Shown: piece by piece, positions 39,628 through 55,141 of the stretch
Layout: each line of letters begins with the position of its first letter
How positions within the stretch are numbered: position 1 is the stretch's first letter
Origin: Lysobacter sp. K5869
Lineage (GTDB): Bacteria > Pseudomonadota > Gammaproteobacteria > Xanthomonadales > Xanthomonadaceae
Direction: 5' to 3'
Length of the DNA: 64,000 nucleotides
NCBI RefSeq assembly: GCF_018847975.1
Contig: NZ_CP072597.1
Coordinates: 5,856,001-5,920,000, forward strand
Notes under the pieces: model-generated
Seen by the model: the letters and a program-made list of their open reading frames with translations, nothing else
What the model was told of the DNA's origin: nothing
Databases searched by the model: none
Program-made: the position numbers and the translations under genes

Positions 39628-42600
39628 GTGTCCGTGCGTCCCTTCTCCCCCGCCGCCCTGTTGTCCGCCGCTCTGATCGCCCTGCTGTGCGCGGCGGCGT
39701 GGCCGCAGCGCGTGGCCGCGGCGACCCGCGATTTCTATTTCTCGCGCCTGGGCAGCGAGCTCGGCCTGAGCCAGAACTCGGTGACCGCGTTCGAGCAGGA
39801 CGCGCACGGCTTCGTCTGGGTCGGCACCCAGGGCGGCCTGCACCGCTACGACGGCCAGCGCTACGTCGCCTACCGCCACGACCCGCGCGACCCGGCCAGC
39901 CTGCCCGACAGCTACGTCACCGCGCTGGCCCTGGACGGCCAGCGCGCGCTGTGGGTCGGCACGCATTCGGAGTATCTGGCGCGGCTGGATCTGGCCAGCG
40001 GCAGCATCCACCGCTACGGCGCGCCCGAGTCGCAGGCCGGGCGGCAAGTGGTGTCGCTGCTGCCGTGGCGCGATCAGGTCTTGATCGGCACCCTCGCCGG
40101 CCTGGAGCGGCTCGACCCGCAGACCGGCGCGCGCGAGCTGCTGCTGGCGCTGCCCGGCGAAGCCACCCGCGCCGCGCCCTGGCAGGGTCTGGCCCAGGGC
40201 CGCGACGGCAGCGCCTGGTTCGCCAGCGCCGCCGGCCTGCACCGGATCGCGGCCGACGGCCGGGTCGAACGCATCGGCGCGCCGATCGCGCTGCGCAGCC
40301 TGACCATCGACCACCGCGGCGTGCTCTGGGCCGGCGGCGGCGACGGCCTGTACCGGCTCGACGGCCGCACCGGCGTGCTGGTCAAGATCGAGGACGAGGC
40401 GTTGGCCGGCCTGCGCGACGCGCGCGCCCTGGTCGAGGCCCACGACCGCCGGCTGTGGATCGCCGGCTTCGGCAGCGGCCTGTACCGCTACGACCCGGAA
40501 ACCGGGCACAGCCAGCGCATCCACGCCGAACCCGGGGTCGAGGCCAGCCTGCCGGAAGACACCATCGACACGCTGATGATCGACCAGGGCGGCCTGCTCT
40601 GGGCCGGCGGCCTGTTCCGCGGCGTGGCCGTGGCGGATCCGCGCGGCACCCGTTTCAGTTATGTGCTCGACCTGGAAGACGCGCGCCCGGACCGCGCCGC
40701 CGCCGACGCCAGCATCCGCGCCCTGGCCCAGGACGACAGCGGCGCGATCTGGATCGGCACCGACAACTTCCATCTGCGCCGCTACGACCTGTCCGGCGAC
40801 CGCTTCCAGGACATGACCCCGTTGCTGCCGGCGGCCTCGCGGCAGGTGCTGGCGATCGCGCGCGAACCCGAGCGCGCGGCCGACGCCGACGCCGCGCCCG
40901 CGCGCCGCGCGAGTCCGCCGGGCCGGCTGTGGCTGGCCACCTCCGGCGGCCTGCTGCGCCTGGACCCGGGCACCGGCCGGATCGAACCGGTCGACCTGCG
41001 CGGCTACCAAGGCGCGGCCCTGCGCTCGCTGCGCTTCGCCCGCGACGGCAGCCTGTGGCTGGGCGGCGACGAGATCGGCGCGCTGCACTACTTGCCCGAC
41101 AGCGGCGTGCTGGTGCGCTACGCCTACCGCGAAGGCGATCCCAAGGGCCTGAGCCATCCGCGCGTCAACGCGATCTTGGAAGACCGCAACGGCCGCATCT
41201 GGTTCGGCACCGGCGATGGCCTGGACCTGCTCGATCCCAAGACCGGCTACCTGCGCCATTACCGCCACATCACCGATCAGGCCGACAGCCTGCCGGGCAA
41301 CAACGTGCGCGCGCTGCACCAGTCCGCCGACGGTTCGATCTGGATCGGCACCCAAGCCGGCCTGAGCCGGGTGGTGGAATTCGGCGACGGCCGCATCCGC
41401 TTCGAGCATCCGCTGGCCGAAGTGCTGGGCGATCATCCGGTGCCGGTGGCGTTCACCATCGCCGAGCGCCCCGACGGCCGCCTGTGGCTGGGCACCGACA
41501 ACGGCATCCTGCGCTTCGACCCGGGCGCCTCGCTGGTGCGCCGCTACGGTCTGGCCGACGGTTTGCAGGACCTGGAATTCAACGCCGGCGCGGTCGCCGC
41601 GCTGGCCGACGGCCGCCTGGCCTTCGGCGGCGTGCGCGGGCTCAATCTGTTCGACCCGGCGCGCATCGCCGACTCGCGCTACACCCCGCCGGTGCGCCTG
41701 CTCGGCGCCTGGATCGGTTCGGACACCAGCGCCGGCGCCAGCGCGCTGTGGCAATCGGCGAAGCTGGAAATCCCCGACGGCGCCGGCATCCTGCGCCTGC
41801 GCATCGGCGCGCTCGACTTCGGCCCCAACAGCGGCATCCGCTATCGCTACCGGATGGAGGGCTTCGACCGCGACTGGATCGACAACGGCCCGCGCCAGGA
41901 CATTACCTACACCCGCCTGCCGCCGGGGCGCTATACGTTCCACGCCCAATCGACCAACCGCGACGGCGTGTGGAACACCCAGGAACTGCGCATCCCGGTC
42001 AGCGTCGATCCGCCGCTGTGGCGGCATCCGCTGGCGATCGCCGCCGCGGCCCTGGCCGCGCTCGGCGTGCTGCTGACCTTCGGCTGGCGCTGGCACCGCG
42101 CGCGCCAGCGCGAACGCGGCTACTTCACCCAAATCCGCGAACGCGAAGAACGCCTGAAGCTGGCGCTGTGGGCCTCCGGCGAACAGTTCTGGGACTACGA
42201 CCTCAAGCGCCGCGAACTGCACCGCATGCGCGTGGACGACCACAACGCGCAGTCGCCGGAAATCGGCGTGCAGGCCGACATCGCCGACGACCACGAGATC
42301 CATCCCGACGACCTGCCGCGCGTGGCCGAGTTGCTGCGCAAGCACCTCAAGGGCGATGCCGCGCTGTTCCTGTCCGAGCACCGCATGCGCACGCCCAAGG
42401 GCGAATGGGGCTGGGTGCGGGCGCGCGGCCGCGTGGTCGAACGCGACGGCGAAGGCCACCCGGTGCGCGTCGCCGGCACCGGCCGCGACGTCACCGCGGT
42501 GCGCAGCGCCGAGCGCGAACGCCGCATCGCCAGCGAGGTGCTGCGCTCGATGGCCGAAGCGGTGGCGGTGTTCGACCGCGACTTCGTGTTCGTCTCGATC

Positions 42601-44211
42601 AACCCCGCGTTCTCGCGCATGACCGGCTACCCGGAGAACGAGGTCATCGGCCAGACCACCGGCCTGCTCGACAGCCGCCAGCACGATCCGGAGTTCTATT
42701 CGGACATGCGCGACGAGCTGCAGCGCAGCGGCCGCTGGTCGGGCGAGATCTGGCAGCAGCGCAAGGACGGCAACGAATTCCTGTGCTGGCTGCAGGCGTC
42801 CATCGTGCTCGACAGCAGCGGCCAGCGCGGCCACTACGTCGCGGTGCTGACCGACATCACCGACCAGAAGCGCGCCGAACAGGAACTGCGCTACCTCGCC
42901 AACTACGACACGCTGACCAGCCTGCCCAACCGCACCCTGCTGTCGGAGCGCCTGTCGCGGGCGATCGTGCGCGCGCGCCGCCACGGCCACCGCATCGCCT
43001 TGCTGTTCCTCGACCTGGACCGCTTCAAGGACATCAACGACTCGCTCGGCCACGCCGCCGGCGACCGCATCCTGCGCGCGGCCGCGGTGCGCCTGCAGGA
43101 AACCGTCGGCGCCGAACACACCGTCGCCCGCCTGGGCGGCGACGAATTCACCGTGGTGCTGGAAAACCTCGACACGCCCGAGCAGGCCGAGGACGTGGCC
43201 CGCCGCATCATCAAGGCGTTCGAGGCGCCGCTGGATTTCGACGAACGCCACGACGTGGCGATCTCGCCGTCGATCGGCATCAGCGTCTACCCCGACCACG
43301 CCCAGGTGCCGACCGACCTGCTCAAGCACGCCGACACCGCGATGTATCAGGCCAAGGCCGCCGGCCGGCGCACTTTCATGCGCTACACCGAGGCAATGGA
43401 CATCGAGATCCGCCAGCGCGCGACGATCTCCGCCGCGCTGCGTAAGGTGCTGGACCGCAACGAACTGCGGCTGGTGTTCCAGCCGCGGCTGTCGTTGCCC
43501 GAGGCGCGCATCACCGGCGTGGAAGCGCTGCTGCGCTGGCAGAGCGCGGAGTACGGCAACATCCCGCCGACCCAGTTCATTCCGCTGGCCGAGGAAAGCG
43601 GGCTGATCCTGGAAATCGGCGAATGGGCGATGCGCGAAGCCTGCAACCGCCTGCGCCAGTGGCGCCAGCACGGGCTCGATCAGCTCTCGGTGTCGGTCAA
43701 CGTCTCGGCGATCCAGCTGCTGCGCGGCGACTTGCCGAAGATGGTCGCCCGCGCGCTCAGCGAAAGCGGCATCCCGCCGTGGCGCTTGGAACTGGAGCTG
43801 ACCGAAAGCGTGGTCATGTCCAACGCCGCGCACACCTCCAACACCATGCAGGCGCTGCGCGAACTCGGCGTGGCGCTGGCGGTGGACGACTTCGGCACGG
43901 GCTACTCGTCGCTGGCTTACCTCAAGCGCTTGCCGATCAACACGCTGAAGATCGACAAGGAATTCATCAGCGATCTGACCCGCGATCCCGACGACGAAGC
44001 CATCACCACCACCGTCATCACCATGGCCCATTCGCTGGGCTTGAACGTGGTCGCCGAAGGCGTCGAACTCGAAGAGCAGATGGAATTCCTGCGCGCGCAC
44101 GGCTGCGACGAAATCCAGGGCTACTGGCTGGCCAAGCCGCTGGAAGCCGACGCCTGCCTGGCCTTCATCAAGCAGTGGCAGCCGCCGCAGAGCGTGCGCG
44201 CGGCGTTCTGA
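39628..44211 (+). CDS. Periplasmic beta-propeller sensor with PAS, GGDEF and EAL domains
   Basis: About 1527 residues from GTG 39628 (VSVRPFSP, then a hydrophobic signal segment); GTG 39610 is also possible. A long N-terminal beta propeller (residues about 35-720) of two-component-regulator type repeats, such as GFVWVGTQGGLHRYDG, LWVGTHSEYLARLD and GRIWFGTGDGLDLLD. Next come a Y_Y_Y domain (about 730-780), one membrane helix (about 801) and two PAS domains (about 842 and 974). GGDEF (LGGDEFTVV, about 1170) and EAL (GVEALLRWQ, about 1296; DDFGTGYSS) motifs are intact. It should make and/or degrade c-di-GMP in response to a periplasmic signal. Confidence 0.93.
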   Translation: MSVRPFSPAALLSAALIALLCAAAWPQRVAAATRDFYFSRLGSELGLSQNSVTAFEQDAHGFVWVGTQGGLHRYDGQRYVAYRHDPRDPASLPDSYVTALALDGQRALWVGTHSEYLARLDLASGSIHRYGAPESQAGRQVVSLLPWRDQVLIGTLAGLERLDPQTGARELLLALPGEATRAAPWQGLAQGRDGSAWFASAAGLHRIAADGRVERIGAPIALRSLTIDHRGVLWAGGGDGLYRLDGRTGVLVKIEDEALAGLRDARALVEAHDRRLWIAGFGSGLYRYDPETGHSQRIHAEPGVEASLPEDTIDTLMIDQGGLLWAGGLFRGVAVADPRGTRFSYVLDLEDARPDRAAADASIRALAQDDSGAIWIGTDNFHLRRYDLSGDRFQDMTPLLPAASRQVLAIAREPERAADADAAPARRASPPGRLWLATSGGLLRLDPGTGRIEPVDLRGYQGAALRSLRFARDGSLWLGGDEIGALHYLPDSGVLVRYAYREGDPKGLSHPRVNAILEDRNGRIWFGTGDGLDLLDPKTGYLRHYRHITDQADSLPGNNVRALHQSADGSIWIGTQAGLSRVVEFGDGRIRFEHPLAEVLGDHPVPVAFTIAERPDGRLWLGTDNGILRFDPGASLVRRYGLADGLQDLEFNAGAVAALADGRLAFGGVRGLNLFDPARIADSRYTPPVRLLGAWIGSDTSAGASALWQSAKLEIPDGAGILRLRIGALDFGPNSGIRYRYRMEGFDRDWIDNGPRQDITYTRLPPGRYTFHAQSTNRDGVWNTQELRIPVSVDPPLWRHPLAIAAAALAALGVLLTFGWRWHRARQRERGYFTQIREREERLKLALWASGEQFWDYDLKRRELHRMRVDDHNAQSPEIGVQADIADDHEIHPDDLPRVAELLRKHLKGDAALFLSEHRMRTPKGEWGWVRARGRVVERDGEGHPVRVAGTGRDVTAVRSAERERRIASEVLRSMAEAVAVFDRDFVFVSINPAFSRMTGYPENEVIGQTTGLLDSRQHDPEFYSDMRDELQRSGRWSGEIWQQRKDGNEFLCWLQASIVLDSSGQRGHYVAVLTDITDQKRAEQELRYLANYDTLTSLPNRTLLSERLSRAIVRARRHGHRIALLFLDLDRFKDINDSLGHAAGDRILRAAAVRLQETVGAEHTVARLGGDEFTVVLENLDTPEQAEDVARRIIKAFEAPLDFDERHDVAISPSIGISVYPDHAQVPTDLLKHADTAMYQAKAAGRRTFMRYTEAMDIEIRQRATISAALRKVLDRNELRLVFQPRLSLPEARITGVEALLRWQSAEYGNIPPTQFIPLAEESGLILEIGEWAMREACNRLRQWRQHGLDQLSVSVNVSAIQLLRGDLPKMVARALSESGIPPWRLELELTESVVMSNAAHTSNTMQALRELGVALAVDDFGTGYSSLAYLKRLPINTLKIDKEFISDLTRDPDDEAITTTVITMAHSLGLNVVAEGVELEEQMEFLRAHGCDEIQGYWLAKPLEADACLAFIKQWQPPQSVRAAF

Positions 44212-44400
44212 CCGGCGCCGGTGCGCGCCGCCGACCTTCCCTGCGGGTGCATGCGCGAACGCGAACGCCGTCACGGCGCGAACGCGGCGCGTTCCCGCAC
44301 GAATCGCAACCATTCGCGATTTACAACGGCGGATCGGCCGAACGTTTCGGATTAGCCAAGGCGGTCAATATTCATCCGGACCTGGCGCCTGACTAAAGGC

Positions 44401-44432
44401 TTGACCCTGGACTATGGTCCAGACCGAACACT
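44401..44432 (+). promoter_or_regulatory. MerR-type operator-promoter
   Basis: TTGACC (44401-44406) as -35, a 19-base spacer containing the dyad CTGGACTATGGTCCAG (44407-44422), and a weak -10 near GAACAC (44426-44431). A lengthened 19-20 base spacer with a central dyad is the hallmark of CueR/ZntR-type promoters. It lies about 40 bases before the MerR-YHS gene, so it should be its own control site. Confidence 0.65.
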
Positions 44433-44468
44433 GGCCGCACACCGAGCGCCAAGAACACGGAGGTGGAG

Positions 44469-45107
44469 ATGAAGATCGGAGAGTTCGCGCAACGCGTAGG
44501 CGTCGGCATCGATACGGTGCGCTACTACGAACGCCAGGGGCTGCTGCCGTTGCCGATGCGCCAGATGTCGGGCTACCGCCGCTTCGAGACCAAGGACGTG
44601 GCGCGGCTGCAATTCGTCCGCCGCGCCAAGAACCTCGGCTTCACCCTCGCCGAAATCCGCGAACTGCTGGCCCTGCTCGGCAGCCGCGGCAGCGACATGG
44701 CCGGGGTCAACGCGGCGACGACGCAGAAGCTCGCCGACGTCGAGGCCAAGATCGCCGAACTCAGCCACATCCGCGATCTGCTGCAAGTGCTGCTCGATTC
44801 GTGTCCCGGCCGCGGCGCGGTCGAATGCTGCCCTATCGTCAATGCACTGGAAGGAGAGAAGAACATGAGCGGTTCGCACCCATTGGACACACCCTCCGAT
44901 GGCCCCCAAGCCGCGCGCAGTTGCTGCTCGGCCGCGCGCACCTGCGAGACCGACACCGCGGCCGGCGCGGTCGACCCGGTCTGCGGCATGCAGGTGAACA
45001 TCGAAACCACGCCGCACCACGCCGTGCAGGCGGGCGTGGGCTACTACTTCTGCTCGGCGCAATGCCGCCAGGAATTCCTGGACACCGGCACGGCGGCCGC
45101 GCGCTGA
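44469..45107 (+). CDS. MerR-family metal-responsive regulator fused to a YHS domain
   Basis: 212 residues from ATG 44469, with GGAGG five bases upstream. N-terminal MerR winged helix (MKIGEFAQRVGVGIDTVRYY, then LPLPMRQMSGYRRFETKDV), a dimerisation helix, then the metal-binding loop DSCPGRGAVECCPIVNAL with three Cys, like ZntR/CadR/CueR-type regulators. The MerR part ends near residue 132. The C-terminus (about 167-205) is a YHS domain, DPVCGMQVNIETTPHH and YYFCSAQCRQEF, with Cys residues that bind heavy metals. A strong ribosome-binding site precedes an internal in-frame ATG at 44865. It is probably autoregulated from the operator at 44401. Confidence 0.9.
   Translation: MKIGEFAQRVGVGIDTVRYYERQGLLPLPMRQMSGYRRFETKDVARLQFVRRAKNLGFTLAEIRELLALLGSRGSDMAGVNAATTQKLADVEAKIAELSHIRDLLQVLLDSCPGRGAVECCPIVNALEGEKNMSGSHPLDTPSDGPQAARSCCSAARTCETDTAAGAVDPVCGMQVNIETTPHHAVQAGVGYYFCSAQCRQEFLDTGTAAAR
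44851..44867 (+). promoter_or_regulatory. Internal ribosome-binding site and in-frame ATG before the YHS domain
   Basis: AAGGAG (44851-44856) lies eight bases before ATG 44865 in the MerR-YHS frame. Initiation here would give an 80-residue YHS protein (MSGSHPLDTPSDG onward). This suggests that two adjacent genes were joined by loss of a stop, or that both forms are made. Confidence 0.6.
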
Positions 45108-45187
45108 CGCCGATCCACAGGGGAACGGCCGCTCGCCCATGCCGGGCGGCCGTTGCGCGGGGCTCGCATCGCAGTCCCGCGTCGCGT

Positions 45188-45331
45188 CGAATCCACGCTT
45201 TTCAGATCGGCAGTTCGCAGGTTCGTATTTCGCAAATCCGCACTTCGCAAATGGGCGCCTCATAGATCCGCGCTTCGCAAATCCGCGCTCGGTAAATCGG
45301 CGCCTTGTAACTCGGCGCTTGGCAAAGCCGC
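45188..45331 (-). pseudogene. Decayed pentapeptide-repeat array
   Basis: On the minus strand this 15-base-period array reads as VRLCQ-APSYK-APIYR-ADLRS, then ADL-stop-G, then AHLRS-ADLRN-TNLRT-ADLKS, the A(D/N)LXX pentapeptide pattern, with an in-frame TGA at 45260-45262 and a TAG just upstream. No start codon with a ribosome-binding site and no complete frame remains. The DNA shows period-15 tandem repetition (units like TTCGCAAATCCGCAC). It fills most of the gap between the MerR-YHS gene and the first haem-oxygenase-like gene. It could also be a non-coding tandem repeat that mimics the motif, but the run of correctly spaced ADL triplets argues against chance. Confidence 0.6.
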
Positions 45332-45521
45332 ACGTCCTACACGTCTTAGATCTCACGCTTCAGATCGAACGCTCCGGACCACCCGCACCTTAGCGATCCG
45401 CTCGCTCCGGATCCGCCGCTCCAACGACCACCCGCCAGTCGCGACCGCCCGGTCGCGGCGCGTCCGCCTGCGCGCCCGCGACGGCGTGCGCGCGCCATCC
45501 ATCCGCCAGCCAGAGGGAACC

Positions 45522-46541
45522 ATGAGCACCGCCACCATGATCCTGGACCCGCAACACGCCAGCGCCGCGCCGCCGCGCGCCGCCGCCCGGGCCGCGCATA
45601 CGCCGGACTATCTCGCCGACGCGCTGCGTCCCGGCGCCAGCAACGCGCAGATCGCGCTCGCCGCCGACGAACTGCTGGCGCTGGTGCGCCAAGGCCTCGC
45701 CGGCGACCAGAACGCCTACGCCCAGTACCAATCCATCCTGCTCGATCTGCACCTGCCCGGCGAACCGCACAGCGAACCGACCCGGCGCTGGCTCGCCAGC
45801 CAGATCTACACCGTCGAAGACCAATTCGCGCCCGCGCTGCCCGACTTCCAGCCGGTCTCGGTGGACGCGTTCCGCGCCGCGATCGACGCCGAGATCGCTT
45901 CGCGCACCCGCGTGCGCCACCCGATGTCGCAGCACCTGTTCCAGGGCACGCCGTCCGAGCAGGACGTGCGCAGCTTCCTGCAGCACCACTGGAACCGCTC
46001 GTACAACTTCTACAGCCTGCTGGCCGAGCTCGCGTTCCGCTTCCCCGACATCCGCGACGCCTCGGTGTTCTACCGCAACCTCTACGGCGAAGCCGGCGCG
46101 GAAACGCCCGAGCGCTCGCACCCGGCGCTGCTCTCGCACCTGATGGTGCACTTCGAGATCCCGCTGGAGATCGACTTCGCCGCGCTGCATCCGCTGGAGA
46201 AGGCCTATCTCAACAACCGCATCCGCTGCGTGCGCCACACCGACGTGGCCTGGGGGCTGTCGCTGCTGTACGCGGTCGAGTCGGTCAGCTGCGTCAACCA
46301 TCTGCGCATCTACGAACTGCTCCAGCGCATGGGCGTGCCCGAAGGCCCGAGCGAGTTCCACCGCCTGCACGGCACTCAGGACGAGATCGACACCGAGGAG
46401 ATGTGGGAGTTGATCGCCAAGTACGCGCACAGCGAATCCTTCCAGCGCACCTTCATGCAGTCGCTGGCCCGCCACTTCGACATCAACCGCGCCTACTTCG
46501 ATCTGCTGTGGCGCCAGATGCAAGGCCCCTCCGTCCACTGA
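45522..46541 (+). CDS. Haem-oxygenase-like (HDO-fold) iron-containing redox protein 1
   Basis: 339 residues from ATG 45522. The C-terminal two thirds match the haem-oxygenase-like dimetal oxidase fold of SznF, UndA, BesC and CADD. Putative ligands by spacing: Glu in YGEAGAETPERSHP with His ten residues later, Glu in LLYAVESVS, and His in FHRLHGTQDEIDTEEM 30 residues after it, then Asp at +4. The usual final His at +7 is Asp. The N-terminal 100 residues are helical and of unknown role. First gene of a five-gene set; the next start is nine bases after its stop. Expected chemistry is O2-dependent oxidation or N-oxygenation, not shown by sequence alone. Confidence 0.8.
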   Translation: MSTATMILDPQHASAAPPRAAARAAHTPDYLADALRPGASNAQIALAADELLALVRQGLAGDQNAYAQYQSILLDLHLPGEPHSEPTRRWLASQIYTVEDQFAPALPDFQPVSVDAFRAAIDAEIASRTRVRHPMSQHLFQGTPSEQDVRSFLQHHWNRSYNFYSLLAELAFRFPDIRDASVFYRNLYGEAGAETPERSHPALLSHLMVHFEIPLEIDFAALHPLEKAYLNNRIRCVRHTDVAWGLSLLYAVESVSCVNHLRIYELLQRMGVPEGPSEFHRLHGTQDEIDTEEMWELIAKYAHSESFQRTFMQSLARHFDINRAYFDLLWRQMQGPSVH

Positions 46542-46550
46542 GCCGATGCC

Positions 46551-47576
46551 ATGAACGCCGCCCTGAACGCCATCGCCACCGACCTCCCGACCGCCGAGCG
46601 CAACCACTCGTTGCCGCAACTCGACGCCCTGCAAAGCAACCGCGCCCGCATCCTCGCCCGCGCGCTCGATCCCGAAGCGCCGTTCGCGCATCTGCAAACC
46701 GCCAGCAAGACCTTGTCGGCGCTGGCCGAGGACGCGCTCAAGGGCGAGTCGGCGGCGAACGAGGAATATCAGAAGCTGCTTTACATCCTCTCGCTGAGCG
46801 ACGACACCGGCACCGCGCTGACCCGCCGCTGGCTGTCCAACGAAGCGTATCGGATCGAGGAACGCCACATCCCCGCGGCCGAGGTGCCCGAGCCGCTGTC
46901 GGAAGCCGAATTCCTCGCCCGCATCGAGCAGGAAGTCGCCTCGCGTTCGCGCGAGAAGCACCCGATGTCGGAATACATCTTCGAAGGCCGCGCCAGCCGC
47001 GCGCAGTTGCAGGTGTTCCTGCGCCGGCAGTGGTTCCGCACCTTCCGCCTGTACCGCGACGCCGCCGACCTGCTGGTCAATCTGGTCGACGTCGACGAAG
47101 CCGCGGCGCTGGGCCGCTATCTGTACGGCGAACTCGGCGAAGAGAACGAACAAGGTTCGCACCCGCGCCTGCTCGCCAAGCTGCTCAAGGCGATCGATCT
47201 GGACGCGGATTTCCAGGCGGTCAGCACCCTGCCCGAAGAGATCGCCTACCTCAACAACCGCGTGCGCAGCTTCCGCAATCCCGACGTGGGCTGGGGGCTG
47301 GCGGTGTTCTACATCACCGAGATCGTGGTGCCCGGCAATCACGAGAAGCTCTACAAGGCGCTGCTCAAGGCCGGCCTGAGCGAGGACGAGGCCGAGTACT
47401 ACCGCATCCACGTCAGCCTGGTGCCGCCGCGGGCCAAGCGCGAGTGGTCGCTGATCGCCAAGCGCCTGCCCGATCACGGCTTCCAGAAGTCGTTCCTGAC
47501 CTCGCTGGCGCAGCACTTCCGGGTCGAGCGCGCGTACTACGACGCGGTCTGGGAGGAGATGCAGCGCGTGCCGTAA
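46551..47576 (+). CDS. Haem-oxygenase-like (HDO-fold) protein 2, partly lacking metal ligands
   Basis: 341 residues, a paralogue of the preceding protein (shared blocks SREKHPMSEYIFEG against TRVRHPMSQHLFQG, and EIAYLNNRVRSFRNPDVGWG against KAYLNNRIRCVRHTDVAWG). It keeps Glu and His ten apart in YGELGEENEQGSHP, Glu in YITEIVV and His 30 residues later in YYRIHVSLVPPRAKREW. The positions at +4 and +7 after that His, Asp and His in active members, are Val and Arg. The second metal site is therefore probably lost, so it may be a structural or regulatory partner, perhaps forming a heterodimer with protein 1. Confidence 0.78.
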   Translation: MNAALNAIATDLPTAERNHSLPQLDALQSNRARILARALDPEAPFAHLQTASKTLSALAEDALKGESAANEEYQKLLYILSLSDDTGTALTRRWLSNEAYRIEERHIPAAEVPEPLSEAEFLARIEQEVASRSREKHPMSEYIFEGRASRAQLQVFLRRQWFRTFRLYRDAADLLVNLVDVDEAAALGRYLYGELGEENEQGSHPRLLAKLLKAIDLDADFQAVSTLPEEIAYLNNRVRSFRNPDVGWGLAVFYITEIVVPGNHEKLYKALLKAGLSEDEAEYYRIHVSLVPPRAKREWSLIAKRLPDHGFQKSFLTSLAQHFRVERAYYDAVWEEMQRVP

Positions 47577-47629
47577 GCCTCCTCGCCAGCAACGCCGCCG
47601 CCGTCGCCGCCACCGCCGAGCCCGCCGCC

Positions 47630-49027
47630 ATGCCCAGCCACGCCACCGAATCGCGCCTGTACGCAGGCGTCTACTCCGATCCCGACTTCGCCGAGATCTT
47701 CAGCGACCGCAACCAGCTGCAGAAATGGCTGGACGTGGAGCGCGCGCTCGCCGCGACCCAGGCCGAGATGGGCGCGATCCCGCCGCAAGCGGCGCAGGAA
47801 ATCGCCCGCGCCGCGCGCGCCGAACTATTCGACCTCGACGCGCTCGGCCGGCAAAGCCGCGAAACCGGCCACGTGCTAGTGCCGACGATCCGCGCCCTGG
47901 CCGCGCTGTGCCGCGCGCCCTGGGGCGAGTTCGTGCATTACGGCGCGACCACCCAGGACATCCTCGACACCGGCCTGATGCTGCAGGTCGGCGAGGCCTG
48001 GGAACGGGTGCTGGCGCGGCTGCATTCGATCCGCGCGCGGCTGCTCGAACTGGCGTTGTCGCACAAGCGCACGCCGATGGTCGCGCGCACCCACGGCCAG
48101 CAGGCGCTGCCGACCACGTTCGGCTACAAGGTCGCGGTGTGGGTCGACGAGATCGACCGGCACCTGCAGCGGTTCGAGCAGGCGCGCGCGCGGGTCATGG
48201 CCGGCAACCTCACCGGCGCGGTCGGCACCCTGGCCTCGTTCGGCGAGAACGGGTTGGAGCTGCAGCGGCGCGCGCTGGCCAAGCTCGGGCTGGCCGCGCC
48301 GCTGACCAGCTGGCACAGCGCGCGCGACCGCATCCTCGACGTGGCCGGTTTGCTGGTGCAGGTCGCGGTGACGATGGGCCGCATCGCCAACGAGGTCTAC
48401 CACCTGCAGCGCACCGAGATCGACGAGGTCCGCGAAGCGGCGCCGGCCGGCAAGATCGGCTCCAGCACCATGCCGCACAAGCAGAACCCCTCGACCATCG
48501 ACTTGATCAGCGCCTTGTCGCGGCTGATCCGCGCGCAGATGGTCGCGCTCACCGACGCCGCGTTCCAGCAGCACGAACGCGACGGCACCGCGTGGCGGAT
48601 CGAGTGGGCGGCGCTGCCGGAAATCTTCGTCTACACCGGCGCGCTGCTGGCGCGCATGGACGAAGTGCTCGCGGCCGGGCTGGACGTGCGCGAGCGGCGC
48701 ATGCGCGAGAACCTCGATCTGCTCGGCGGCCGGATTCTGTCCGAGCGGGTGATGCTCGCGCTGGGCGAGCGGGTCGGCAAGCAGACCGCGCACGAACTCG
48801 TGCACGAGGCCTCGATGCACGCGCGCCGCGAGGAGATCGCGTTCCGCGACGCACTGCTCGCCGACGTCCGCATCCGCGCCGAATTCGCGCCCGGCGCGCT
48901 GGAGGCCCTGCTCGATCCGGTCACCTACACCGGCCTGGCCGCGGCGATGGTCGAACGCGTCGCCGCCGGATCGTCCCCGCCCGAACGCGCCGAGCGCACC
49001 GCCCGACCGCACGCCGCGAGCGCCTGA
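47630..49027 (+). CDS. Fumarase/ASL superfamily lyase, PcaB/CreD-like
   Basis: 465 residues from ATG 47630; no good ribosome-binding site is visible, but translation may be coupled to the upstream stop. Superfamily blocks: EFVHYGATTQDILDTGLML, MVARTHGQQALPTTFGYK, and the catalytic-serine loop GSSTMPHKQNP with LISALSRLIRAQMVAL after it. This form of the loop fits 3-carboxymuconate cycloisomerase-like and nitrosuccinate-lyase-like members more than purine-pathway adenylosuccinate lyase. No other beta-ketoadipate genes are present, so a PcaB role is unlikely. It should eliminate fumarate or a related acid from an aspartate- or succinate-derived compound. Confidence 0.82.
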   Translation: MPSHATESRLYAGVYSDPDFAEIFSDRNQLQKWLDVERALAATQAEMGAIPPQAAQEIARAARAELFDLDALGRQSRETGHVLVPTIRALAALCRAPWGEFVHYGATTQDILDTGLMLQVGEAWERVLARLHSIRARLLELALSHKRTPMVARTHGQQALPTTFGYKVAVWVDEIDRHLQRFEQARARVMAGNLTGAVGTLASFGENGLELQRRALAKLGLAAPLTSWHSARDRILDVAGLLVQVAVTMGRIANEVYHLQRTEIDEVREAAPAGKIGSSTMPHKQNPSTIDLISALSRLIRAQMVALTDAAFQQHERDGTAWRIEWAALPEIFVYTGALLARMDEVLAAGLDVRERRMRENLDLLGGRILSERVMLALGERVGKQTAHELVHEASMHARREEIAFRDALLADVRIRAEFAPGALEALLDPVTYTGLAAAMVERVAAGSSPPERAERTARPHAASA

Positions 49028-49086
49028 TGCGCCGCAAAGCAAAGCGTTTCCACCCCGCCCACTCCCGAACGGAAGGAAGGATTGCG

Positions 49087-50562
49087 ATGGAACCCCAAAC
49101 GCTAGTCGCGATAGCCCCCGTGGCGACGCGCCCGCTGGCCGCGTACGCCGCTCAGGCGCACTGCGCCGCCGGCGCCGACCACACCCTGGCCGATTGCCGC
49201 CACGAACACAGCCACGCCCTGGACTCGCCCACCCACGGCGGCGGCTACGCCGGCGCGGCGACGCGGGCGATCTTCTGCAGCCGCTGCCGCCTGCAGCGCT
49301 GGCTCGACGTCGAAGCCGCGCTGGCGCTCGCGCAGGCCGAAGTCGGCATCGTGCCGCGTCAGGCCGCGGTGGAGATCCGCCGCTGCGCGCGGCTGGCGGC
49401 GATGGACGTCGAGCGCATCGCCGACGGCGTCGCCCGCACCGGCCATTCGCTGATGCCGCTGCTGCGCGCGCTGCAGGACCAATGCAACCCGGAAGCGCGC
49501 GAGTTCGTCCATTACGGCGCCACCACCCAGGACATCCAGGACACCGCGCAATCGCTGGAAATGCGCGACGTGCTCGACGCCATGGACGGCGAACTCGACC
49601 TGCTGCTGGCCAAGCTGTCGGTGCTGGCCGATCAGCACCGCGGCTCGGTCATGGTCGCGCGCACCCACTCGATTCCGGCGCTGCCGACCACGTTCGGGCT
49701 CAAGGTCGCCGGCTGGATCGACGAACTGCTGCGCCACCGCGACCGCTTGCAGCAAGCGCGCCAGCGCATCCTGGTGGTGCAGTTGTTCGGCGGCGTCGGC
49801 ACCATGGCCGCGTTCGGGCCGCGCGCGCTGCCGCTGCTGGACGCGTTCGCGCGCCGGCTCGGCCTGGACGTGCCGCTCGCCGGCTGGCACGTCGCTCGCG
49901 ACCGCGTCGCCGAATTCGTCAGCACCTTGGCGATGGCCACCGCCTCGCTGGCGCGCGTCGCCGACGAGATCCGCACGCTCAACCGCTGGGAGATCGGCGA
50001 GGTCGAGGTCGGCTGGAGCGCCGAGCAGATCGGCAGCAGCACCATGCCGCACAAGCGCAACCCGGAAGGCTGCGAGCAAGTGGTGGTGATGGCGCGGCTG
50101 GCCAAGGCGCAGGTGATGCTGGCGCTGGACGCGATGATCCTGGAGCACGAACGCGATTACCGCGGCACCCGCCTGGAGTGGTGCGCGGTCGCCGACGTCT
50201 CGCACTACGCGCTGACCGCGATCCGCCTGCTCACCGAGACCGTCGCCGGCCTGACCGTCAACGACGCCAAGATGGAGCGCAACGCGCGCGACTTCAGCGA
50301 CTCGATCTGCATGGAAGCGTTCGTGTTCGAGATGGCCGGCAAGCTCGGCAAGAGCAGCGCCTACGAAATCATCTTCGAGCTCACCCAGGCCTGCCAGCGC
50401 GATCGCGTGCCGATCCGCGAGGCGGTCGAGGCCGATCCGCGCGTGCTCGCCGCGGTCGGCGAAGGCCGGCTGGCGCGGCTGTTCGAACCCGCGGCGCACC
50501 TGGGCATGGCCGAGGCCATCGTCGACAGCGTGCTGACCGAAGCCGGCCACCGCCGCTACTGA
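49087..50562 (+). CDS. Fumarase/ASL superfamily lyase, PurB-like, with Cys/His-rich N-terminal extension
   Basis: 491 residues from ATG 49087 (AAGGAAGG upstream). The core starts near residue 60 (RLQRWLDVEAALALAQAEVG) and has EFVHYGATTQDIQDTAQSL, VMVARTHSIPALPTTFGLK, GSSTMPHKRNPEGCEQVVV and LEHERDYRGTRLEW. The MPHKRNP form and following residues look like adenylosuccinate-lyase-type enzymes. The first 55 residues (HCAAGADHTLADCRHEHSHA) are not part of the normal fold and are rich in Cys and His, possibly metal-binding. A true purB may lie elsewhere, so this copy is likely specialised; a purine role cannot be excluded. Confidence 0.8.
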   Translation: MEPQTLVAIAPVATRPLAAYAAQAHCAAGADHTLADCRHEHSHALDSPTHGGGYAGAATRAIFCSRCRLQRWLDVEAALALAQAEVGIVPRQAAVEIRRCARLAAMDVERIADGVARTGHSLMPLLRALQDQCNPEAREFVHYGATTQDIQDTAQSLEMRDVLDAMDGELDLLLAKLSVLADQHRGSVMVARTHSIPALPTTFGLKVAGWIDELLRHRDRLQQARQRILVVQLFGGVGTMAAFGPRALPLLDAFARRLGLDVPLAGWHVARDRVAEFVSTLAMATASLARVADEIRTLNRWEIGEVEVGWSAEQIGSSTMPHKRNPEGCEQVVVMARLAKAQVMLALDAMILEHERDYRGTRLEWCAVADVSHYALTAIRLLTETVAGLTVNDAKMERNARDFSDSICMEAFVFEMAGKLGKSSAYEIIFELTQACQRDRVPIREAVEADPRVLAAVGEGRLARLFEPAAHLGMAEAIVDSVLTEAGHRRY

Positions 50563-50604
50563 CATCAATCGCACCCACACACTACGAGACCGGGAGACAC
50601 GGCA

Positions 50605-51678
50605 ATGGCGGAAGGCAACGCGATGGACCACAGCAAGGTCGAGCAATTCTCGGCCCGGATCATGGAGGATTACGGCAACACCCTGCGCGGCGCCATGCTG
50701 TATCTCGGCGACCGCCTGGACCTGTTCAAGGCGCTGGCCCGCCTGGGCGCGGTGACCTTGGAGGAACTGGCCGCCGACACCGGCCTCAACGCGCGCTACC
50801 TGCGCGAATGGCTCGGCGCCATGGCCACCGGCCACTACGTCCACTACGACGCGCAAACCCGCCGCTACCGTCTGCCGGCCGAGTACGCGCCGGTGCTGGC
50901 CGACGAGGATTCGCCCTACTTCGCCGGCGGCATCCTCCAGCTCAGCGTGCCGTTCGTGAGCATGGCCCCGCGCATCGCCGAAGCCTTCCGCAACGGCGGC
51001 GGCGCGCCGGAGGAATCCTATCCGCTGGAAACCTGGCAAGGCATGGAGCGCATGACCATGCCCTGGTACAAGCATTTCCTCGTGCAGCGCTGGATCCCCT
51101 CGCTCGACGGAGTCAAGGAAAAGCTCGAAGCCGGCGGCACCGCGCTCGACTTCGGCTGCGGCAGCGGGTTGGCCGCGATCACGATGGCGCAGGCGTTCCC
51201 GAAGGCGCGCGTGGTCGGCGTGGACTTCCATCTGCCCTCGATCGAACGCGCCCGCGCCAACGCCGAAGCCGCCGGCGTCGGCGACCGGGTCCGCTTCGAG
51301 GTCGCCGATTCCGATGCGGTGGTCGGGCAGAAGTTCGACTTCGTCACCACCTTCGTGGTCATCCACGACGCCGCCGACCCGCAGCAGATGCTGCGCGACC
51401 TGCGCGCGACCACGGCCGACGACGGCACCTATCTGATGGTCGAGCTCAATCTGTCGGAAGAACTGCACGAGAACATGAACCTGTTCGGCCGGGTGATGTA
51501 CCCGCAGAGCACGCTGTACTGCATGACCTGCTCGCTCTCCCACCACGGCGCCGGGCTGGGCGCGTTCATGGGCGAGAAGCGCGCCCGCGAGATGGCCGCG
51601 GCCGCCGGTTTCGGCCGTTTCCGCAAAGTGCCCTCCGACCGGCCGCCGCTGCCGGCGCTGTTCGAACTGCGGCCCTGA
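50605..51678 (+). CDS. SAM-dependent methyltransferase with N-terminal winged helix
   Basis: 357 residues, GGGAG upstream. The N-terminus (LRGAMLYLGDRLDLFKALAR and LEELAADTGLNARYLREWLG) is the dimerisation/winged-helix domain seen in O-methyltransferase-like and Rv2258c-type proteins. The C-terminal Rossmann domain has ALDFGCGSGLAAITMAQAF (SAM motif), VVGVDFHLPSIERAR, FEVADSDAV and FDFVTTFVVIHDAADP. It closes the HDO/lyase set and fits a tailoring step on a small product. No transporter gene follows. Confidence 0.88.
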   Translation: MAEGNAMDHSKVEQFSARIMEDYGNTLRGAMLYLGDRLDLFKALARLGAVTLEELAADTGLNARYLREWLGAMATGHYVHYDAQTRRYRLPAEYAPVLADEDSPYFAGGILQLSVPFVSMAPRIAEAFRNGGGAPEESYPLETWQGMERMTMPWYKHFLVQRWIPSLDGVKEKLEAGGTALDFGCGSGLAAITMAQAFPKARVVGVDFHLPSIERARANAEAAGVGDRVRFEVADSDAVVGQKFDFVTTFVVIHDAADPQQMLRDLRATTADDGTYLMVELNLSEELHENMNLFGRVMYPQSTLYCMTCSLSHHGAGLGAFMGEKRAREMAAAAGFGRFRKVPSDRPPLPALFELRP

Positions 51679-51964
51679 GCCGCCGCGGGCGCGCCTTGGC
51701 CGCCGGCTTCGGCCGGTGGGTGGGTGCGTCCGCCGCGATGGTGGCGTCCCGAGCGGAGCGCCGCCGTCGCACCGCTCCCCGGCGGCTACGTCGCGCGGCC
51801 CGGCACGCCACACCGGCCGCGCGGCGTACCGCCTTCCTGCGGGCTCACAGGTCCCGCGAAGTCCCGGCGATTCGGGCGCCCGTCGTCGCGCCACGGCGCA
51901 CCGCGGCGCGACCGGTTCAGGCCCCGCCTTGACCGCCCCCGCCCGCTCCTGCCATCGTGCCGGG

Positions 51965-52186
51965 ATGGATCGCGCCGAACTCATCGCCGAATTGCAGGCC
52001 GTGCTCGCCCGGGTCGACGAACTCGGCGACCGCGTGCGCCGGCTCAGCGACGAGAACCGCAGCCTGCGCCAGCAACAAGAGCAGCTGATCGGCGAACGTT
52101 CGGCCCTGCTGGCCAAGAACGAACAAGCCCGCACCCGGGTCGAAGCCATGATCGCCCGGCTCAAGTCCTTGGAACAGCACACCTGA
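51965..52186 (+). CDS. Small coiled-coil protein (TIGR02449-like)
   Basis: 73 residues, one long heptad coiled coil (LQAVLARVDELGDRVRRLSD, LRQQQEQLIGERSALLAKN), starting at ATG 51965. Proteins of this kind sit directly upstream of zapA in gammaproteobacteria and resemble ZapB in shape. Probably cytoplasmic; a cell-division link is inferred only from position. 285 bases without a gene precede it. Confidence 0.85.
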   Translation: MDRAELIAELQAVLARVDELGDRVRRLSDENRSLRQQQEQLIGERSALLAKNEQARTRVEAMIARLKSLEQHT

Positions 52187-52233
52187 GCCCCTTTGTATCC
52201 GCCGTCCCCGACCTCGCCCATGAGCCTGCCCGC

Positions 52234-52542
52234 ATGAGTACGACGAGCGAAGCCGTCAGCATCCGCCTGCTCGACCGCGAGTACACGGTCGGGTGCGAGC
52301 CCAACGAGCGCGAAGACCTGCTCGCCGCCGCGCGCATGCTCGACGGCAAGATGCGCGAAATCCGCGGCGGCAACCGCATGGCCGCGCTCGACCGCGTGGC
52401 CGTGCTGGCCGCGCTCAACTTCGCCCACGAACTGCAACAGCTGCGCGGCGAAAGCGGCGGCCGCGAGCGCGAACTCGCGCGCACGCTCGACGATCTGCAC
52501 CGCAAGCTCGACAGCCTGTTCGAGGCGGCCACCGCGCGCTGA
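52234..52542 (+). CDS. zapA: Cell division protein ZapA
   Basis: 102 residues from ATG 52234. Binds FtsZ and bundles protofilaments at the division ring. VSIRLLDREYTVGCEPNERE is the ZapA domain signature and LLAAARMLDGKMREIR follows; RMAALDRVAVLAALNFAHEL leads into the C-terminal coiled coil. It sits between the small coiled-coil gene and 6S RNA, a conserved zapA-ssrS-fau order. Confidence 0.94.
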   Translation: MSTTSEAVSIRLLDREYTVGCEPNEREDLLAAARMLDGKMREIRGGNRMAALDRVAVLAALNFAHELQQLRGESGGRERELARTLDDLHRKLDSLFEAATAR

Positions 52543-52734
52543 TCGACGCCGCCGCGCCGCGGAGCGATCCGCCGCGCCGCCCGTCGGCGCGAGCGCGCCA
52601 TTCGCATCCTTCGCGCTCGCGCCACGCCGCGCCGATACCGGGCGCGCGCGCCAGAAAACCGCGCGACGCGCGTCACGCGAATCCCTGTTCATGCCGCCTA
52701 GCATCGAGGCCATGAACCATCGCCGACGAGCGGA

Positions 52735-52769
52735 TTCGCCCGACGGCACTCGCGCGCTATACTGCGCGC
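52735..52769 (+). promoter_or_regulatory. Promoter of 6S RNA
   Basis: TATACT at 52758-52763 is a good -10 box, seven bases before the inferred RNA start. The -35 near TTCGCC (52735-52740) is weak. Confidence 0.6.
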
Positions 52770-52957
52770 ACGTCCTCTGCTGTGCGCGACGGCGTGCGCA
52801 AACATTCGCCTTGTCCCTTAATGACGACACCGGGGACGCGCCGGAAGCCCGGAGTGCAAGTCCGCCTAGCAGCGGGAAGCCCGAAGGCGTCCAAGCGTTC
52901 CCACTTGAACCCCGGGTTCAAGGTCGTTTCGCAAGCATCGCCATTGGCGGAGGACTA
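52770..52957 (+). ncRNA. ssrS: 6S RNA
   Basis: About 188 bases. The 5' GTCCTC pairs with the 3' GAGGAC to close the long hairpin. CACTTGAACCCCGGGTTCAA and the following CGTTTCGCAAGC match the conserved 3' arm of gammaproteobacterial 6S RNA (E. coli has CCTTGAACCAAGGGTTCAAG). The CTTGTCCCTTAATGACG part is the 5' arm. It mimics an open promoter and sequesters sigma-70 RNA polymerase in stationary phase. Its position between zapA and fau matches E. coli. Confidence 0.93.
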
Positions 52958-52964
52958 CTCTTTC

Positions 52965-53012
52965 CGGAACGGGCGCGACGTCACCCCAGGTGATTTCGCG
53001 CCCGTTTCCTTA
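52965..53012 (+). terminator. Hairpin after 6S RNA, before fau
   Basis: GGAACGGGCGCGACGTCACC pairs imperfectly with GGTGATTTCGCGCCCGTTTC. A short T-rich end (TTTCCTTATG) follows. It may end or process the 6S transcript and attenuate reading into fau. Confidence 0.6.
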
Positions 53013-53065
53013 TGTACGCTGGCCGGACTTCGCCCTGCCCCCACCATGCCGAGCCCCCCGATCGC

Positions 53066-53659
53066 ATGACGGACGACCGCACCACCCTGCGCCGCGAACT
53101 GCGCGAGCGCCGCCGCACCCAACCCGCCGCCGCCCGCATCGGCGGCGCCGAAGCGCTCGCCGCGCAGTTGCTCGCGCTGCCGTTCGCGCCGCAGTCGGGC
53201 TATGTCGCCGGCTACTGGGCCACCGACGGCGAAATCGCCCTGCACGCGTGGCAGCTGCGCTTGCCGAAGGACTGCGTCTATTGCCTGCCGGTGCTGCACG
53301 CGGACCAGAGCCTGCGCTTCGCGCCCTGGCGGCCGGGGGACGATCTGGTCGCCAATCGGTTCGGTATACCGGAACCGGCGTTGGCTGACAGTTCGTTGCT
53401 TCGGCCCGAGGACATGAGCCTGATTGTCCTACCGTTGGTTGGCTTCGACGCCCGCGGCCACCGGCTCGGCATGGGCGGCGGCTGGTACGATCGCAGCCTC
53501 GCTTTCCGTCAACGCCGCCCCGCCCCCCCCTGGCTGGTCGGCGCCGCTTTCGAGTTACAGCGCGTCGAACGACTCGACGCCGCCGACTGGGATGTCGCGC
53601 TGGACGCCGTGTGCACCGAAGCAGGCACCGTGGATTGCCGCTCCGCGCTGTACGCCTGA
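53066..53659 (+). CDS. fau: 5-formyltetrahydrofolate cyclo-ligase
   Basis: 197 residues from ATG 53066. Converts 5-formyl-THF to 5,10-methenyl-THF with ATP. RRELRERRRTQPAA is the N-terminal block; VAGYWATDGEI, FGIPEPALADSS and VLPLVGFDARGHRLGMGGGWYDR hold the nucleotide and substrate residues. The gene follows 6S RNA and is probably co-transcribed with it, as in other Proteobacteria, which would link folate recycling to growth phase. Confidence 0.95.
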   Translation: MTDDRTTLRRELRERRRTQPAAARIGGAEALAAQLLALPFAPQSGYVAGYWATDGEIALHAWQLRLPKDCVYCLPVLHADQSLRFAPWRPGDDLVANRFGIPEPALADSSLLRPEDMSLIVLPLVGFDARGHRLGMGGGWYDRSLAFRQRRPAPPWLVGAAFELQRVERLDAADWDVALDAVCTEAGTVDCRSALYA

Positions 53660-53713
53660 TCCCCCAACCGCGATGCAACTGCCCCTGCATCCCGAACCTT
53701 GCGAGCCCCCCGC

Positions 53714-54184
53714 ATGACCGCACGACGCCGCTACTGGCTGATGAAGTCCGAACCGGACACTTTCTCCATCGACGATCTAGAACGCGTGCGCACCGAGCCA
53801 TGGAACGGCGTGCGCAACTACCAGGCCCGCAACTACATGCGCGACGGCATGAAGATCGGCGACGGCGTTCTGTTCTACCACTCCAACACCGCGATCCCCG
53901 GCATCGTCGGCCTGGCCACCATCGCCGCCGAAGCCTATCCCGACCCGACCCAGTTCGATCCCAAGTCCGATTACTACGACGCCAAGAGCACGCGCGAAGA
54001 CCCGCGCTGGCTGCTGGTGGACGTGGCCTTCGAACGCAAGCTCGCCCGCACCATCGCGCTCGACGAGATCAAGGCCCGCGCCGAGGAACTCGGCGAGGAC
54101 TTCGCCCTCACCCGCCGCGGCAACCGCCTGTCGGTGCTGCCGGTCTCGGCGGCGCAGTGGAAGTTGTTGCTGGCGATGGAGTGA
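53714..54184 (+). CDS. EVE domain protein
   Basis: 156 residues from ATG 53714. YWLMKSEPDTFSIDDL, WNGVRNYQARNYMRD, VLFYHSNTAIPGIVGLA and DPRWLLVDVAFE match the EVE (DUF55, thymocyte nuclear protein 1-like) family, a PUA-like fold that reads modified bases in nucleic acid. It lies 54 bases after fau on the same strand. The conserved Trp and Asn pocket residues are present. Confidence 0.93.
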   Translation: MTARRRYWLMKSEPDTFSIDDLERVRTEPWNGVRNYQARNYMRDGMKIGDGVLFYHSNTAIPGIVGLATIAAEAYPDPTQFDPKSDYYDAKSTREDPRWLLVDVAFERKLARTIALDEIKARAEELGEDFALTRRGNRLSVLPVSAAQWKLLLAME

Positions 54185-54186
54185 TT

Positions 54187-54292
54187 GCAGCAAGGGAATG
54201 AAGGGAACAGGGAAAGAGGGGAATGGCGGGTTTCACCGCGTTCCCACCATTCCCCTCTTCCCTTCTTTCCCCTAATTCCCGCTCCATTCTTT
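54187..54292. repeat. GGGAA/TTCCC inverted element, copy 5
   Basis: Left arm CAAGGGAATGAAGGGAACAG and the following purine-rich bases; right arm CATTCCCCTCTTCCCTTCTT and following. It sits between the EVE-domain gene and rpiA, with a spacer of about 22 bases. Confidence 0.8.
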
Positions 54293-54314
54293 CCCTCCCA
54301 ACTCTCGAAACCCA

Positions 54315-54977
54315 ATGAGCGAACACAAGCGCCTGGCCGCCGAAAAAGCCATCGACTACATCGAAGACGGCATGATCGTCGGCGTCGGCACGGGCTCCAC
54401 CGTCGCCTATTTCATCCAGGCCCTGGGCCGCATCAAGGACCGCATCAAGGGCGCGGTGTCGAGCTCGGAACAGAGCACGGCGCTGCTGCGCGAACTCGGC
54501 ATCGAGGTGCTCGACCTCAACAGCACCGGCCAACTGTCGCTGTACATCGACGGCGCCGACGAGTGCGATCCGAACAAATGCCTGATCAAGGGCGGCGGCG
54601 CCGCGCTGACCCGCGAGAAAATCATCGCCGAGGCCAGCGAAAAGTTCGTCTGCATCGTCGACCCGTCCAAGCAGGTCAAAGTGCTGGGCAAGTTCCCGCT
54701 GCCGGTGGAAGTGCTGCCGATGGCGCGCAGCCTGGTCGCGCGCCAGATCGTCGCGCTGACCGGCGGCCAGCCGGTGTGGCGCCAGGACGCCGCCGGCAAC
54801 GGCGTGGTCACCGACAACGGCAACGTCATCCTCGACATCCACAACCTCGCCATCGCCGAACCGGTCAAGCTCGAAGCCGCGCTCAACCAGATCCCCGGCG
54901 TGGTCGCCGTGGGCCTGTTCGCGCGCCGCAAGGCCGACGTGGTCATCGTCGGCGGCGAGCCGCCGGTGGTGCTGTAG
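54315..54977 (+). CDS. rpiA: Ribose-5-phosphate isomerase A
   Basis: 220 residues. Interconverts ribose-5-phosphate and ribulose-5-phosphate in the pentose phosphate path. [11 protein letters not shown] binds phosphate; Asp79, Asp82, Lys92 and Glu101 ([19 protein letters not shown]) correspond to the catalytic Asp81, Asp84, Lys94 and Glu103 of E. coli, offset by two. Cytoplasmic, full length. Confidence 0.97.
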
Positions 54978-55141
54978 GTCTTCGCGTCCGGCCGCTCCGT
55001 TCGTCGCTTCCGAGCGGCTACCTGTTCCTTCCGGCCGCATGCGGCCGGACAATGCGCCAGCCCGGCCGCTTCCGGCCGGGCACGTTCCAGTCGCGGCAAC
55101 GGACGCCGCGGCGCCAACCCGGGCGGCCCGCCCACGCCATC

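Follow-up and report, generated by a model that had tools for sequence, protein, structure and literature searches.

A five-gene operon in Lysobacter sp. K5869

We analysed 64,000 nucleotides of DNA from Lysobacter sp. K5869 (contig NZ_CP072597.1, positions 5,856,001 to 5,920,000; hereafter the window), which are part of a 5.97 Mb single-contig genome. Five open reading frames (ORFs), all on the plus strand, span positions 45522–51678 and are separated by gaps of 9, 53, 59 and 42 base pairs (bp). Pfam assigned HOASN and Haem_oxygenas_2 to genes 1 and 2, Lyase_1 and ADSL_C to genes 3 and 4, and methyltransferase domains with a winged-helix N-terminus to gene 5. ORFs and domains thus confirm what an earlier, sequence-only reading of the window had described: two HDO proteins, two fumarate-type lyases and a methyltransferase, encoded close together on one strand with gaps of 9–59 bases. 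That reading knew of no described system with this composition, but it is the composition of the fluopsin C operon of Pseudomonas aeruginosa. The genes, with predicted functions and identities to the P. aeruginosa PA7 counterparts, are as follows.

45522..46541, plus strand: flcE, HDO enzyme for conversion of S-succinyl-cysteine to the oxime by oxidative decarboxylation and N-hydroxylation (76%)
46551..47576, plus strand: flcD, mononuclear-iron HDO enzyme for removal of the oxime carbon as formate (73%; 511 bits to 8w1q/3bjd)
47630..49027, plus strand: flcC, C–S lyase of the fumarate-lyase superfamily (71% to the third flc gene; FlcC versus FlcB by gene order)
49087..50562, plus strand: flcB, fumarate-lyase superfamily enzyme for joining of L-cysteine and fumarate (77% to the fourth flc gene)
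50605..51678, plus strand: flcA, S-adenosylmethionine-dependent N-methyltransferase (81%; methyltransferase domains)

The structures matched by gene 2 are crystal structures of P. aeruginosa FlcD, both entries being named FlcD in PMC11363339. Gene 1 matched the same two structures with 235 bits, as expected of the second HDO of the operon. We estimate at about 0.93 the probability that this set is a fluopsin C operon (flcEDCBA) orthologous to that of P. aeruginosa, with the copper complex of N-methylthiohydroxamate, two molecules per copper, as the predicted product.

The FlcD alignment (window plus 14 of 46 homologs) was used to scan one genome per species, which gave 62 candidate stretches, 17 with a relative, and 16 distinct loci. 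These loci were collected through FlcD and the synteny counts therefore describe the company that FlcD keeps; start codons in the other loci were picked by script. All five genes were present in the same order in 16/16 loci of three genera (three Lysobacter, 12 Pseudomonas including P. aeruginosa PA7, and Pseudoduganella buxea), at 68–97% identity. Conservation of five genes at this level and in one order is therefore not due to chance, and the idea that they travel together across genomes is borne out. The nearest named locus is that of Lysobacter enzymogenes ATCC 29487 (L003), with 87–97% identity per Flc protein. Within the genus, FlcD was found at E<=1e-170 in eight of 20 genomes; at E<=0.001 the count was ten, from which G001 and G002 (24% identity, near 1e-6) were left out. 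Examined loci carry L labels and the 20 genomes of the genus G labels (G011 is L016). The operon is complete in all eight flc-positive genomes, namely those of the window, L003, L004, L016, L049 (G003), L054 (G006), L055 (G019) and L056 (G004).

Active sites and proposed pathway

All 15 FlcD residues named in PMC11363339 (metal ligands, the V and R standing in for the last two ligands, residues in contact with the substrate, and active-site tyrosines) are kept in the window and in 17/17 sequences (window plus 16 loci), the mononuclear-iron motif E-H-E-H-V-R and the substrate residues being present in every one. Among 150 HDO groups, the motif was strongly predicted for that of FlcD and no other (PMC11363339). 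The aligned ligand positions of FlcE, E-H-E-H-D-D, are identical in 17/17 sequences, PA7 included. Characterised HDOs are described as having E-H-E-H-(D/E)-H (PMC11363339); by alignment to FlcD, FlcE has an Asp in place of their last His ligand, and this Asp is invariant in the 17 sequences.

For P. aeruginosa, the steps are described in the order FlcB, FlcE, FlcD, FlcC and FlcA, followed by copper binding by two ligands; oxime formation by FlcE loses CO2, and FlcD excises the oxime carbon as formate with one iron (PMC11363339). By orthology with P. aeruginosa, where these steps were shown, Lysobacter FlcB would add L-cysteine to fumarate and FlcE would convert S-succinyl-cysteine to the oxime, releasing CO2. 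As a dioxygenase with one iron, FlcD would then excise the oxime carbon as formate, FlcC would break the C–S bond and free the thiohydroxamate, and FlcA would N-methylate it, after which two molecules would chelate one copper. Of the product guessed by the sequence-only reading, the small, N-oxidised and methylated compound stands, while the nitrite/hydrazine or N–N donor does not, given the orthology with the fluopsin C operon.

The two lyases

FlcC and FlcB were told apart by gene order. PA14_18850 is given as FlcB in the operon PA14_18810-18860 (PMC11419262), which makes it the fourth gene provided that the tags follow the gene order. In the lyase tree, third-gene and fourth-gene lyases formed two groups, each including the P. 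aeruginosa counterpart; the outgroup was PurB (L058), a PurB fragment (L057) and ArgH (L060), whose branches were saturated at 10, so that its placing means little. By synteny and tree, both lyases are orthologous to P. aeruginosa FlcB and FlcC.

The lyases had earlier been likened to CreD, PurB and PcaB, an idea that does not survive: in the described pathway FlcB joins cysteine and fumarate and FlcC breaks a C–S bond, and the score against the CreD model is less than half of its cut-off. A beta-ketoadipate or purine role was rejected as well. The PcaB models TIGR02426 (311.7 and 275.3 bits, cut-off 355.75) and NF006554 (395 and 343.6 bits, cut-off 595) were not reached, and the genome's own PurB (L058) belongs to another subfamily, with 728.6 bits to NF006764 against 99.9 and 90.8 for the Flc lyases. 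The Lysobacter Flc lyases do pass NF006500, labelled 'adenylosuccinate lyase' (670.6 and 730.1 bits, cut-off 626), as do the PA7 lyases (801 and 840.3 bits). This label does not imply a purine role, because the genome's own PurB reaches the model with just 92.9 bits. One score speaks against separating these enzymes from PurB: gene 3 passes the purB model TIGR00928, with 341.5 bits at a cut-off of 326.2. Lyase_1 occurs at just five places in the genome, two of them the Flc lyases; with this count and the co-occurrence of the genes, the outcomes that the sequence-only reading had named as speaking against it did not arise.

Automatic annotation will misname the Flc lyases as adenylosuccinate lyase (window 47630–50562; L014:11008–13892).

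The pathway itself is already known, and Lysobacter as a host and the control arrangement described below are new only as far as the literature was searched. That search, which left out most subscription papers including the founding fluopsin C paper, possibly listing other hosts, returned no report of a flc operon in Lysobacter or of its wiring, none of a copper thiohydroxamate or of a biosynthetic gene cluster with haem-oxygenase-like enzymes in this genus, and none linking a MerR protein with a YHS domain to copper. The founding paper reportedly appeared in Science in 2021. The analysis removes a claimed new pathway and names a product to look for, and the potential chemistry of Lysobacter gains fluopsin C.

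A MerR-YHS regulator upstream of the operon

Three features lie upstream of flcE.

44401..44431, plus strand: candidate MerR-type promoter element, TTGACC plus dyad CTGGAC-TATG-GTCCAG (dyad 44407–44422), from a genome and genus site search and a four-locus alignment
44469..45107, plus strand: MerR-family regulator with a C-terminal YHS domain, proposed copper sensor (Pfam MerR_1, MerR-DNA-bind, YHS)
45229..45333, no strand: 15/45-bp tandem repeats (Tandem Repeats Finder) within the 414 bp that separate regulator and flcE; no function is claimed for them

The regulator ORF was listed from a GTG at 44463, and the ATG at 44469 gives the better match to relatives. A MerR-YHS gene lies upstream of flc in all eight flc-positive Lysobacter genomes; in three of them (G003, G004 and G011) the YHS piece has an ORF or frame of its own, and one match spans both parts in the other five. 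The dyad occurs at one site in the K5869 genome and at one site each in 12 of the 20 genomes of the genus. In 8/8 flc-positive genomes, this single site stands ahead of merR and flc, and an alignment of four Lysobacter loci showed it kept with one or two base changes. Even among close relatives, the stretch from the regulator to flcE gives a poor alignment.

A CueR-type box in the other hosts

We take PA3519-PA3515 to be the PAO1 tags of the fluopsin C operon, so that PA3515-3519 would be the flc genes. CueR of P. aeruginosa is described as activating PA3515-3519 (PMC7922089, PMC12833586), and fluopsin C as copper-regulated (PMC11317636). A CueR-like box, TTGACC-N8..14-AA(G/C)C(T/A)(C/T)TA, was found 42–350 bp upstream of the flcE start in 13/13 non-Lysobacter loci. 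It was found upstream of flcE in none of the three named Lysobacter loci, nor in the window. The expression was written after some sites had been seen; as a control, it gave no other match, either across the 16 loci (616,926 strand-bases) or within window positions 40000–55000.

A related locus in flc-less Lysobacter

Five of the 12 flc-negative genomes (G010, G012, G013, G014 and G018; L044–L048) carry a merR gene followed by a copper-type ATPase gene with a YHS domain. The MerR proteins of this locus are 55–63% identical to the flc regulator, or 58–63% in the four genomes that have the exact dyad ahead of merR; G012 has the same gene pair without the exact dyad. In the four dyad-bearing genomes, the downstream ORF is, or is 83–85% identical to, the YHS/HMBD P-type ATPase of G010. 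The G010 protein, the only one on which domains were tested, scores 576 bits against the copper subfamily model TIGR01511 (cut-off 397), while falling short of the CopA equivalog. The solo YHS piece of the flc loci resembles the start of this ATPase.

Among the 20 genomes, eight have flc only, five the YHS-ATPase only, seven neither and none both. By a hand calculation, zero overlap would arise by chance about once in twenty times, and as the genomes are related this mutual exclusion is suggestive only. One tentative scenario is that flc moved into Lysobacter under a copper-efflux module and now occupies the place expected for the ATPase body, and that the remaining YHS piece fused to the regulator and formed a dedicated one-site sensor.

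Genomic site and possible transfer

In the window, L003 and L004, the operon is flanked by a GGDEF/EAL sensor gene on one side and TIGR02449-zapA on the other, and in G006 and G019 the same folate cyclo-ligase gene is no more than 7 kb away. G003, G004 and G011 carry it elsewhere. The three genomes read at the GGDEF/EAL-zapA site have no operon there, the flanking matches being 221 bp (G015), 212 bp (G009) and 241 bp (G003) apart. To the left of the operon, the window encodes a GGDEF/EAL protein, UPF0149 and an M24 peptidase. A 6S RNA (Rfam RF00013, 85.9 bits) lies at 52771–52957 between zapA and the 5-formyltetrahydrofolate cyclo-ligase gene, an ordinary housekeeping context.

Between the window and PA7, Flc proteins are 71–81% identical, compared with 57% for RpiA and 54% for HemW. 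With these two yardsticks, which are few, the higher identity of the Flc proteins fits horizontal transfer. Plasmid-borne spread was rejected, FlcD having no match in 72,556 plasmid records. Nor did we see class-wide spread: at E<=1e-80, FlcD was found in one of 369 sampled class genomes, K5869 itself. This does not contradict the Pseudomonas loci, because the sample held few close relatives.

FlcD homologs with 71% identity are named for Serratia aquatilis and [Empedobacter] haloabium (P0022, P0026), which suggests that flc may be more widely spread.

Probable copper control and its alternatives

Judged from these sequence comparisons, excess copper probably turns on the Lysobacter flc operon by way of the upstream MerR-YHS protein. 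This protein would act at its TTGACC/CTGGAC-TATG-GTCCAG promoter, which would replace the CueR-type box of Pseudomonas and Pseudoduganella. A single biosynthetic operon would then answer to two different metal sensors, an arrangement open to experimental test.

Several observations weigh against this interpretation. The metal loop of the regulator is C-X8-C, the spacing of Hg-MerR, in all 13 rows of the MerR alignment (which leaves out two other MerR loci of the genome, L031 and L032), and Met stands where Hg-MerR has its third Cys. The C-X7-C loop of CueR, which had been expected, is thus not present, and we do not claim copper specificity from the regulator sequence. The regulator passes no metal-specific NCBIfam cut-off: it reaches 112.4 bits against 147.4 for CueR (TIGR02044), and is also below those of MerR, ZntR and CadR. 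From the end of YHS to flcE, the gap of 414 bp (373 in L003, 243 in L004 and 216 in L016) is long for one transcript, and may hold a second promoter. The dyad was sought exactly, with one free base and no mismatch, and variant sites could be missed. For the operon as a whole, an exporter is not among the five genes, and the flanking genes on both sides are unrelated.

One alternative concerns purpose. The operon might serve mainly to buffer or detoxify copper and not to attack other microbes, to which we give somewhat less than even odds. PA3515-3519 are placed in the CueR regulon of P. aeruginosa (PMC7922089), a detoxification role of fluopsin C has already been proposed (PMC11419262), and a related regulator precedes a copper-type ATPase in the five flc-less genomes. 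On the other hand, fluopsin C has been described as an antibiotic with a broad spectrum, and Lysobacter are predators and antibiotic makers. The two roles are compatible.

We consider it less likely than not that fluopsin C is made but flc is not under MerR-YHS, being driven instead by its own promoter within the 414 bp ahead of flcE or responding to a distant CueR-like protein. The gap is long and poorly conserved and contains tandem repeats, and two further MerR relatives (34% identity) are encoded in the genome, one of them close to the best copper ATPase match, at a distance of about 100 bp. However, flcE lacks a CueR-type box in the window, L003, L004 and L016, and regulator and dyad accompany flc at two or more chromosomal sites.

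We consider a decaying or silent acquisition very improbable. The patchy occurrence in the genus (8/20) would suit it, as would the amino-acid-changing codons between the window and L003, 62/465 and 58/487 in the lyases versus 11/357 in FlcA. Yet the five frames are open, active-site residues of FlcD and FlcE are kept, and base differences fall mostly at third codon positions in FlcE, FlcD and FlcA, and about half do so in the lyases.

Finally, we give next to no credence to a nitrosuccinate/hydrazine-type pathway to nitrite or an N–N compound: both lyases are in the CreD superfamily (structure 5xny matched at 226 and 171 bits), but they reach only 297.6 and 234.5 bits against the nitrosuccinate lyase (CreD) model with its cut-off of 650, their close full-length orthologs stand in the fluopsin operon in the same order, and FlcD carries the motif predicted for its own group. 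A nitrite/hydrazine donor was rejected on this orthology and these scores. As the sequence-only reading had noticed, no CreE-like flavin oxygenase lies among the five genes, the regulator or the scanned neighbours, the rest of the window being outside the scan.

Comparison with known systems

Fosfazinomycin and kinamycin clusters pair a CreD-type lyase with a second lyase. The Flc lyases share a superfamily with CreD, but fall far under the CreD-type cut-off, and the described flc pathway uses S–C, not N–C, chemistry. Closer in score is XcbD (3-sulfopropionylcysteine synthase), which ranks second among the NCBIfam models for both lyases; their 468.0 and 447.7 bits remain below its cut-off of 600 bits.

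The merR and YHS-ATPase locus of flc-less Lysobacter resembles the flc locus in its related MerR, the dyad (4/5) and a similar CC + YHS module beside merR, but its output gene is a copper-type P-type ATPase and not flc. The PA7 operon differs from that of the window in its upstream genes, an HMA-type ORF and one for an AcrB-family pump; the 3 kb upstream in L003, L004 and L016 contained no HMA-type ORF. With the P. aeruginosa fluopsin C operon (PA14_18810-18860), the window shares all five enzymes (71–81% identity), the gene order, the FlcD active site and the likely product. It differs in its Lysobacter host and in the region ahead of flcE, where a MerR-YHS gene with its own dyad is found instead of a CueR-type box.

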